From: Desulfolithobacter dissulfuricans
GTDB taxonomy: Bacteria; Desulfobacterota; Desulfobulbia; Desulfobulbales; Desulfobulbaceae
DNA: 64,000 nucleotides
Assembly: GCF_025998535.1 (NCBI RefSeq)
Contig: NZ_AP024233.1
Coordinates: 1,152,217 to 1,216,216 of the forward strand
Reading direction: 5' to 3'
The notes below the pieces were generated by a model. That model was not told where the DNA came from and did no database searches. It worked only from the letters and a program-made list of their open reading frames with translations. Below, in pieces: positions 3,350 through 51,599 of the stretch. A program made the translations under genes and the position numbers. Numbering within the stretch: the stretch's first letter is position 1; the number at the start of each line of letters is the position of its first letter.

Positions 3350-3381
3350 TTTTGTTTTTTGATTGCCACTGAAATTCAGCC
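3350..3381 (-). repeat. Solo end fragment of the 170-bp palindromic intergenic repeat
   Basis: The 32 bases match, in reverse orientation, the right terminus plus A-rich flank of the elements at 20567-20738 and 33483-33652. One difference from them is in the terminal repeat (GCC for ACC). The rest of the element is absent, so this is a relic or a solo end. Confidence 0.7.
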
Positions 3382-3614
3382 GGAACAAGAACAAGGGATA
3401 TCATCGCCTGGTCTCTGAAAGAGTTGCTCGCAGGAGCGTACCTTTTTGCAACTAAGTTATCTCTCCAGGTAGAGAGAAAAAGCGATGTCAGCTCTCAGAC
3501 CGGTGACAGCTGAGCTTTGGTGGTTATCACATTTTGTTTTGCGTATGGGAAAAAATTCTTCTAAGATAGAGACCAGAGAAAAAAATTCAGACCTAGACGT
3601 CTGCAGGAAACCCT
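3382..3614 (+). other. Gap before the PilZ gene; hairpin-rich leader
   Basis: No convincing gene is seen. The stretch holds two hairpins: GTTGC paired to GCAAC around 3423-3452, and CTCTC-CAGGTA-GAGAG near 3461-3476. A further imperfect AGCT/CTGAG pairing lies near 3488-3518. This could be a structured 5' leader of the PilZ gene. It does not match the c-di-GMP-I (GEMM) riboswitch core as I know it. Confidence 0.3.
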
Positions 3615-20566: not shown

Positions 20567-20738
20567 TGATTACCACCAATCTTTGGCATTGAAACCGGTG
20601 TCGGGCCTCGCTTGTTTCACGGGACGCCATAAACCCGTCCCTGGGGGCTTGACTGTGGCCATCCAGGCCACAGACACCCGTGCAACAAGCAAGCCCCGAC
20701 ACCTTCATCCATCGAAGGCTGAATTTCAGTGGTAATCA
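20567..20738. repeat. Palindromic intergenic element, copy A (172 bp)
   Basis: Ends are a perfect 10-bp inverted repeat TGATTACCAC/GTGGTAATCA. Inside, 20597-20622 pairs with 20678-20703 (23 of 26 positions). The central loop carries two further hairpins (GGGACG/CGTCCC and CTGTGGCC/GGCCACAG). It lies between convergent ribD and the ParB-like gene. It has no coding capacity. A second full copy is at 33483-33652 and a solo end is at 3350-3381. Confidence 0.9.
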
Positions 20739-32926: not shown

Positions 32927-33379
32927 GTGGAATACAGAACAGGACGTATGGGCCGGGTCTTTTATGTCCGGTTTGATCATGGGGACGATTTGCTGGAGGG
33001 GTTGCGAGGTCTGGTCCTGAAAGAGGAGATCCATTGCGCCTGGTTCGAGCTTTTCGGCGGCCAGCGCCGGGTCGACGTGGTGGTCGGGCCCGAAGAGCCG
33101 GTCATGCCGCCAAATCCGGTGTGGCGCCGGCTGGACAATGTCCGGGAACTGCTCGGGGTGGGGTCTGTTTTCCGGGACAGGGGTGACCCGCTGGTCCATC
33201 TGCACGGCGCCCTGGGGCACCGGGACGAAACCATCACCGGCTGTATCCGGGAAAGGGCCGAGGTCTACCTGGTTGTGGAGGCTGTGGTCTACGAACTGCT
33301 GGACATGGATATCAGTCGGCCGTTTTTTGACGGAGGCGGGTTTCACCGACCCGAATTTGGTCGGGGCGACCGGGACTGA
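32927..33379 (+). CDS. PPC/DUF296 domain protein
   Basis: The GTG start lies five bases after darP. The 150-residue product fits the PCC/DUF296 fold: RFDHGDDLLEGLRGLVLKEEIHCAWFELFG near 15-44 and a metal-binding-like LVHLHGALGHRDETITG near 89-105. Those His residues are typical of the trimeric family. Stand-alone bacterial PPC proteins have no AT-hook and their role is unclear. Operon partner of darP. Confidence 0.85.
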   Translation: MEYRTGRMGRVFYVRFDHGDDLLEGLRGLVLKEEIHCAWFELFGGQRRVDVVVGPEEPVMPPNPVWRRLDNVRELLGVGSVFRDRGDPLVHLHGALGHRDETITGCIRERAEVYLVVEAVVYELLDMDISRPFFDGGGFHRPEFGRGDRD

Positions 33380-33482
33380 CATCACCGTTCCTGCCCGTGA
33401 CCGGTTCTCAGATGTGCGGGGCAACTGGAATCGCCCAGTGACATGTCCCGGACAGGTCGTGTCGCCGGGACAAACAAAAATC

Positions 33483-33652
33483 TGATTACTATCAATCTTT
33501 GGCATTGAAACCGGTGTCGGCCTCACTTGTTTCACGGGACGCCATAAACCCGTCCCTGGGGGCTTGACTGTGGCCATCCAGGCCACAGACACCCGTGAAA
33601 CAAGTGAGGCCGACACCTTCATCCATCGGTGGCTGAATTTCAGTGGTAATCA
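33483..33652. repeat. Palindromic intergenic element, copy B (170 bp)
   Basis: The ends TGATTACTAT and GTGGTAATCA are inverted (8 of 10). The inner arms 33513-33537 and 33593-33617 pair perfectly over 25 bp. The loop sequence appears identical to that of copy A. Between copies the arms differ by a paired A-T to G-C exchange and a paired one-base-pair insertion. It lies between convergent PPC and pycB genes. The 335-base gap from 33380 to 33715 otherwise holds only the adjoining pycB terminator. Confidence 0.9.
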
Positions 33653-51521: not shown

Positions 51522-51599
51522 GGTGAGCGTAGCTCAGTTGGTTAGAGCACTTGGTTGTGGCCCAAGAGGCCGTGGGTTCGAGTCCCATCGCTCACCCCA
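51522..51599 (+). tRNA. tRNA-His (anticodon GTG), CCA encoded
   Basis: The acceptor stem GTGAGCG/CGCTCAC pairs perfectly and has the His-specific extra G at -1 opposite C73. The D arm GCTC...GAGC, the anticodon loop TTGTGGC within CTTGG/CCAAG, and the T arm GTGGG-TTCGAGT-CCCAT are all intact. CCA is encoded in the genome. A promoter is upstream and a terminator follows. Confidence 0.98.

Follow-up and report, generated by a model that had tools for sequence, protein, structure and literature searches.

A MITE-like element of Desulfolithobacter dissulfuricans carries a conserved fold with paired GGA loops, a candidate CsrA/RsmA double site

Introduction

What are the two look-alike palindromic elements that lie between genes of Desulfolithobacter dissulfuricans, and what might their folded interior do? 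Both lie in a 64,000-nucleotide stretch of this genome (the window, i.e., the whole piece of DNA analyzed), and a first-pass annotation had offered a MITE, a REP-like element, or a structured RNA or terminator as possible identities. Here, we describe the two copies, their family in this genome (positions with the prefix C1), and the fold that they share with elements of other genera.

Results

Two elements with paired arms in the window

Copies A and B both have terminal repeats and paired inner arms, as the first-pass annotation had observed. The outer repeats enclose a module in which a long stem (P1) surrounds a junction with two hairpins (P2 and P3). The features in the window are as follows.

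20567 to 20738, minus strand: copy A, whole element, from repeats and arms, fold, and covariance model; the putative functional fold is read on the minus strand
20597 to 20623, unstranded: copy A, first arm of the P1 stem, partner 20677 to 20703
20677 to 20703, unstranded: copy A, second arm of the P1 stem, partner 20597 to 20623
20626 to 20648, minus strand: copy A, P2 hairpin, minus-strand loop AGGGAC
20653 to 20673, minus strand: copy A, P3 hairpin, minus-strand loop UGGAU
33483 to 33652, minus strand: copy B, whole element, from repeats and arms, fold, and covariance model
33513 to 33538, unstranded: copy B, first arm of the P1 stem, partner 33592 to 33617; the intron target of other copies lies here
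33592 to 33617, unstranded: copy B, second arm of the P1 stem, partner 33513 to 33538
33541 to 33563, minus strand: copy B, P2 hairpin with UUUAU bulge, minus-strand loop AGGGAC
33568 to 33588, minus strand: copy B, P3 hairpin, minus-strand loop UGGAU
33471 to 33480, unstranded: copy B, left target duplication, CAAACAAAAA
33653 to 33662, unstranded: copy B, right target duplication, CAAACAAAAA
3360 to 3529, unstranded: a further MITE whose terminal repeat is related but whose interior differs, with AAACAAAAT at either side (by eye)

The outer repeat of copy A matches at 10 of 10 positions and its inner arms at 89% over 27 nt, and no direct repeat of at least 7 bp flanks this copy. Copy B has inner arms that match at 26 of 26 positions and an outer repeat that matches at 8 of 10 (TGATTACTAT versus GTGGTAATCA). 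RNA folding gave z-scores of -10.1 for copy B and -7.2 for copy A, with 0 of 200 shuffles equally stable. A covariance model built from 45 sequences, with the window genome, Desulfopila, and L214 left out, scored copy A at 89.7 bits and copy B at 97 bits, both on the minus strand, and the next-best matches in the window reached 11.8 and 10.3 bits. At the gathering score, Rfam gave no match to the element in the 64-kb window, where a tRNA gene (51523 to 51596) was the only match.

The differences between the two copies had been read as compensatory. The A-T to G-C change and the inserted base pair are present; however, three other positions in the arm type of copy A are uncompensated (C.C, C.A, and T.C). 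The A/B pair alone is thus a weak test of covariation, and the case for a maintained fold has to be carried by the comparison across genera.

Both copies had also been placed between convergent genes. This is the case for copy A, whose neighbors are a RibD-like gene (plus strand) and an open reading frame (ORF) without a Pfam match (minus strand). Copy B lies between DarP (plus strand) and an oxaloacetate decarboxylase-like gene (minus strand), a convergent setting only if a 115-amino-acid ORF beside it (33138 to 33485, without a Pfam match) is ignored. The setting is not exclusive genome-wide, as the 66 copies described below comprise 25 in convergent, 13 in divergent, 11 in co-directional, and 17 in opposed contexts; contexts here and in other genomes follow a crude longest-ORF rule rather than annotation. 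As for a reported solo end, the sole other place in the window that matched the end patterns (up to 3 mismatches) was the element at 3360 to 3529, which has both ends and a different interior and so does not qualify as a solo end of the family; this check rests in part on the 100 end-like places listed among 146 in the genome. A copy similar to this third element lies, for example, at C1:456659-456823.

The outer unit is a dispersed, MITE-like transposon

A count in the genome sequence analyzed, which the first-pass annotation had called for, revealed a large family of 66 two-ended copies, found by pairing left and right ends. A DNA search returned 98 candidates, of which 40 were scored and were all near full length with 92 to 100% identity, and pattern searches allowing up to 3 mismatches found 61 cores, 54 left ends, and 79 right ends, with 0 matches to reversed-pattern controls. 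The 66 copies consist of 53 short copies (alignment A1), 1 short copy with an inverted interior (left out of A1), 9 with a 2.0-kb insert, and 3 of only 61 nt. One of the nine copies with the insert also has an inverted interior. In two loci (L205 and L211), the interior hairpin module is inverted relative to the terminal repeats. The three 61-nt copies (L208, L209, and L220, the last at C1:1078697-1078757) lack the interior, have flanking direct repeats, and share one junction with TCGG microhomology.

The element is about 173 bp long, and its terminal repeats are TGATTACCAC-type ends. Perfect flanking direct repeats of at least 7 bp surround 50 of the 66 copies (at least 9 bp in 48), compared to a mean of 2.1 and a maximum of 5 copies when flanks were swapped. 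The target duplication is typically 9 to 10 bp and A/T-rich, and the 9 nt to the left of the element have an A+T fraction of 0.89. Because flanking repeats occur in 50 of 66 copies when about 2 were expected, the outer unit is very probably a MITE-like nonautonomous transposon. The MITE reading of the first-pass annotation is supported by these duplications together with the terminal repeats, the tens of copies, and the rarity of the core pattern, which 55 of 56 other genomes in the same family and order lack. Since the core pattern was found in just one of those 56 genomes, in a single occurrence, the element was probably acquired and then amplified in D. dissulfuricans.

Like other MITEs, the element is short, has no gene, and combines terminal inverted repeats, target duplications, and many copies; it differs in carrying a module that is conserved across genera as a strand-specific fold. 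We also considered whether the inner module moves independently in this genome and rejected this, as 60 of 61 cores sit in two-ended copies and the last core has a right end. Searches of plasmids, phages, and Escherichia coli genomes gave no match to the element at an E value of 0.01. Among titles and abstract openings of the open-licence literature on repeats, CsrA decoys, and nested introns, we found no description of the MITE family, and exact strings of the element sequence did not occur in any of 5.39 million open-licence papers.

The search for a matching transposase terminus, another check proposed earlier, covered 146 end-like places in this genome, a number that includes the element's own family and some MITEs with other interiors. 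Among the 100 places listed, no transposase with the element's terminus was identified; the only transposase genes were of the IS110 family and appear to be nested in other MITEs. Elements of 1.83 to 1.86 kb were weighed as an autonomous partner and set aside because their gene is of the IS110 family, apparently lies inside another MITE, and is missing from a 400-bp version of the element (C1:3583730-3584129). Two such elements, L230 and L231 (C1:3170840-3172703 and C1:3202734-3204562), carry identical IS110-family transposase proteins between MITE-type ends. An IS110-family element thus apparently uses MITEs as landing sites. In Desulfopila, the end search gave 230 end-like places (control, 1; 100 of the 230 were listed), and the copies there have an outer repeat in common with the D. 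dissulfuricans element.

The module is conserved across genera

We then compared the module itself among genomes. Scanning species genomes with the core pattern gave at least 120 stretches; of the 80 loci listed, 4 are from Desulfopila, and the remainder bear names that we take to be those of Gammaproteobacteria. A relaxed pattern was applied to 16 genomes chosen because they carry the module and found 59, 51, 104, 4, 14, 3, 2, 25, 9, 19, 47, 10, 11, 11, 5, and 40 places, the 104 being in Methylotuvimicrobium buryatense 5G; controls in the same 16 genomes gave 0.

The P1 arms of 77 loci from different genera are on average only 37% identical to each other. Even so, the complementarity of an arm to its own partner averaged 20.3 (range, 6 to 30) versus 7.7 for swapped arms, although a few swaps between related arms score as high as 25; in some analyses of these loci, the 9 of 77 with a P1 score below 14 were dropped. 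For covariation, we used an alignment (A2) for which instances qualified only if their P3 was of ordinary length with a stem of 5 or more Watson-Crick pairs, and from which near-identical arms were dropped. This kept 48 of 110 instances, after which L139 was left out and a window copy added. Pairing in P3 is therefore partly selected in this test, whereas pairing in P1 is not. RNAalifold predicted 37 pairs in the 48 aligned elements, 31 of them with two-sided changes. With a structure that we defined ourselves, 89.8% of 1,811 cells pair, compared to 59.6% in shuffled and at most 43.1% in slid alignments; 587 cells have two-sided changes versus 192 in shuffled alignments; and the covariation score is 0.736 versus 0.192 (shuffled) and at most 0.172 (slid). 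Counting the pairs that show at least one two-sided change (32 of 38) is by itself no evidence, since 35 of 500 shuffles do as well; the other covariation measures carry the case. Collectively, these data leave almost no doubt that the fold of the module is conserved. The maintained fold proposed from A and B is upheld, far more by the other genera than by the two copies.

In 53 copies of the D. dissulfuricans family, which were collected with the end patterns and the core alike, changes seen in a single copy number 9 in the 50 columns of the P2/P3 core, 19 in the 55 columns of P1, and 34 in the 65 outer columns; the core has fewer than the rest (9 in 50 versus 53 in 120 columns, p = 0.008).

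Outside this genome, direct repeats of at least 8 bp flank the module in 10 of 109 instances (2.8% by swapping), and three of the ten are in Desulfopila. The modules at L109 and L268 are flanked by other inverted repeats and by direct repeats of 9 to 10 bp, which suggests that they were captured by different MITEs. Extra sequence interrupts P3 at nine loci (L068, L085, L110, L115, L117, L132, L133, L139, and L292), and several of these have, by eye, GGA hairpins on the opposite strand. The Xanthomonas locus L292 contains two elements in opposite orientation, one of which is cut by the end of the locus.

When the Rfam thresholds were lowered, the matches obtained on the element in copy B and in eight carrier loci stayed far short of gathering scores, and we found no description of the fold in the open-licence literature. 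This is a structured element with strong covariation and 2 to 104 copies in each of 16 carrier genomes, yet it has no Rfam match at the gathering score in the window.

The fold is probably read on the minus strand

At least 8 nt from the core, and with the 8 of 110 instances that had a P1 score below 12 dropped, the P1 arms of the remaining 102 elements read on the minus strand have 116 G.U, 14 A.C, 86 purine-purine, and 25 pyrimidine-pyrimidine mismatches. In 36 nonredundant arms, the corresponding counts are 34, 9, 36, and 6, and per element, G.U exceeded A.C in 19 cases and A.C exceeded G.U in 4, with 13 ties (p = 0.0026). The minus strand also folds more stably in 87 of 110 instances. Because the P1 mismatches read as G.U on this strand (116 versus 14 A.C), the minus strand is quite likely the one that functions as a single-strand fold, opposite to the strand considered earlier. 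A strand-specific mutation bias is another conceivable source of the G.U excess.

Whether this strand acts as RNA or DNA is a separate matter. We favor RNA over single-stranded DNA, as a probable rather than a firm assignment; the structured RNA suggested by the first-pass annotation is borne out as a strand-specific fold. No sigma-70-like promoter was found in or beside copies A and B. Flanking genes do not favor transcription of the GGA strand in D. dissulfuricans (11 co-directional versus 17 opposed, p = 0.34). In other genomes, where 93 of 110 instances were classified as 37 convergent, 11 divergent, 14 co-directional, 30 opposed, and 1 undetermined, the excess of opposed over co-directional genes (p = 0.02) runs opposite to a 3'-untranslated-region model.

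Paired GGA loops resemble a CsrA/RsmA double site

Of 110 instances, 90 have a P3 hairpin, and their stems are of 51 different kinds; several of the other 20 have inserts in P3. P3 lay outside both search patterns. On the minus strand, 88 of the 90 loops contain GGA, and on the plus strand none does; 61 of the 90 are C-ANGGAN-G hexaloops, and 22 have CNGGA rather than ANGGA. The P2 stem is Watson-Crick paired in 106 of 110 instances (CCC/GGG in 88, TAC/GTA in 10, TCC/GGA in 6, and CTC/GAG in 2). Its letters were limited to YCC/GGD in the core pattern and free in the relaxed pattern, the source of most TAC/GTA and CTC/GAG types. The GGA of P2 was forced by the search patterns; the letter before it was free in the relaxed pattern and takes all four bases. 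The P2 bulge is UUUAY. From P3 to P2, the two GGA motifs are spaced by 20 to 21 nt in 85 of 98 cases. A third GGA hairpin beside P1 in the D. dissulfuricans copies is not conserved. CsrA is encoded here as well as by each of the 16 other carriers, a test of little power given that Gammaproteobacteria commonly have such genes. The orientation of neighboring genes lends CsrA binding no support.

Pairs of GGA loops have served as the signature of CsrA binding in other RNAs, among them the TwoAYGGAY RNA, for which binding was predicted on this basis (PMC4333381). GGA in 88 of 90 P3 loops and the 20- to 21-nt spacing to the GGA of P2 give the module the shape of a CsrA double site. By analogy, a CsrA/RsmA double site is the function that fits the module best, and we would give it about an even chance. 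In the mechanism that we propose, a MITE-like element of about 173 bp would, with the help of a transposase, insert into A/T-rich sites and duplicate about 9 bp of the target. Its cargo would be the conserved fold, acting as a single strand on the minus strand; in the minus-strand RNA, one CsrA/RsmA dimer would clamp both GGA loops, that of P3 and that of P2, and dispersed copies, where transcribed, could serve CsrA as binding sites in cis or titrate it as sponges in trans. The transposition footprint, the conservation of fold and loops, the strand preference, and the spacing are computed quantities. We infer two further steps, namely a role of the strand as RNA and its binding by CsrA. A MITE whose minus-strand RNA cargo is clamped by CsrA/RsmA is the best explanation as a whole, and we regard it as roughly a coin toss.

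Other explanations of the fold

The main rival to the CsrA/RsmA double site is a function in single-stranded DNA. The minus strand would fold during replication or transfer and be recognized by a recombinase or transposase, with the GGA loops as landmarks, a recognition of the folded strand that is likened to that of integron attC sites and REP hairpins. G.T pairs in DNA would yield the same strand preference, every one of the 16 carriers examined has the module in multiple copies, and neighboring genes show no preference for transcribing the GGA strand. However, the duplications of the D. dissulfuricans copies lie at the outer ends, which argues that the copies were moved by those ends and not by the module, and the copies show no significant bias relative to the direction of replication (40 of 66, p = 0.11); we consider this reading unlikely.

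Templated correction of imperfect palindromes alone could keep the P1 arms matched, and the element might then be a purely selfish palindrome whose arms are matched by template switching and not by selection. Some single copies indeed have matching changes on both arms (e.g., C1:2092616 and C1:3017124), and several arms in other genera are perfect over at least 26 bp (e.g., L064, L067, and L082). The strand-specific mismatch spectrum, the nearly invariant GGA of the P3 loops, and the matched changes in the 3-bp P2 stem would all go unexplained, making this an improbable account.

We regard as still more improbable a bidirectional transcription terminator that sits between convergent genes and spread as a MITE. 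The A/T-rich target can place T runs beside a long hairpin, and convergent sites are the commonest context class. A terminator scan, which covered copies A and B, found no strong match on either, however: the one terminator-like match at B adjoins the element, and the weak match at A (3 G-C pairs) is at about the level of shuffles. Nor would a terminator need conserved GGA loops, a bulge, or a junction, and the earlier terminator suggestion is not sustained.

A group IIC intron inserts into the P1 arm

The 2.0-kb insert is a group II intron of 2,025 to 2,026 nt, of which the genome sequence analyzed has 12 two-ended copies (e.g., L201 to L207, L210, and L240 to L243), one with a split reading frame. 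Nine of the 12 lie inside the element at one point of a P1 arm, after GGTGTCG[AG]CCTC or a one-base variant, and the other three lie elsewhere, after similar or weaker matches to the target. The intron encodes a group II reverse transcriptase/maturase (TIGR04416, 397 bits; Pfam RVT_1 and GIIM) whose best match among solved structures is the GsI-IIC enzyme, and domain V of the intron matches Rfam. The intron contains GAGGTC, presumably its EBS1, which is complementary to the GACCTC of the target. GACCTC occurs in 8 of 9 interrupted copies and in 21 of 53 free copies (p = 0.009); the script read 50 of the 53. The P1 arm is the main site of this group IIC intron, which thus uses a MITE as its landing site. 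The idea that the element is kept because the intron needs it would fit this preference for one position and for GACCTC, but it is hardly credible, since the arm sequences differ in the other carriers (37% alike on average) and the intron profits from the element rather than the reverse.

The genome also has 35 further matches to other group II reverse transcriptase types, which are 38 to 40% identical, with one fragment at 48%. In all, the 3.6-Mb genome has 49 group II reverse transcriptase matches, intron fragments included.

Discussion

Comparison with known systems sets the element apart in several respects. REP elements are 20 to 40 bp long. Like REP/BIME repeats, the element is palindromic, intergenic, and present in many copies; it differs in its size of about 173 bp, target duplications, and branched fold, and the REP-like identity proposed in the first-pass annotation is not supported, since size and footprint differ. 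The CsrA/RsmA-binding RNAs CsrB and RsmX/Y/Z likewise have paired GGA motifs in hairpin loops (the signature as given in PMC4333381). Each of them is one small-RNA gene, whereas the element consists of dispersed mobile copies with a three-way junction in a long variable stem and a putative binder. The TwoAYGGAY RNA (Rfam RF01731) has, as its name says, two hairpins with AYGGAY-type loops; cmscan gave no match to RF01731 in the window at the gathering score, on copy B at an E value of up to 10, or in eight carrier loci at an E value of up to 1.

RsmU of Xanthomonas campestris is an RsmA-binding RNA with GGA motifs (PMC7694677), and we considered it as a family member. It was rejected because no element lies beside comEA in 25 Xanthomonas loci, obtained from 25 of 26 genomes; the comEA stop codon was not located, and the result rests on absent core and model matches. 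In these loci, four element matches lie more than 1 kb from the comEA match, and two matches to the model are weak (13.1 and 11.9 bits).

Taking the CsrA/RsmA double site as the working interpretation, we tentatively propose, as a possibility with odds somewhat against it, a widespread family of mobile, scattered CsrA/RsmA decoys in which each copy would be a minimal clamp for one CsrA dimer. Such decoys would be carried by MITEs at least in D. dissulfuricans and Desulfopila and would have spread among Gammaproteobacteria, their copy number tuning a global regulator. If CsrA binds, transposition would set the dose of that regulator's decoys, and if the decoy reading is true, the family may include unrecognized RNA antagonists of RsmA, for example, in Xanthomonas and Stenotrophomonas.
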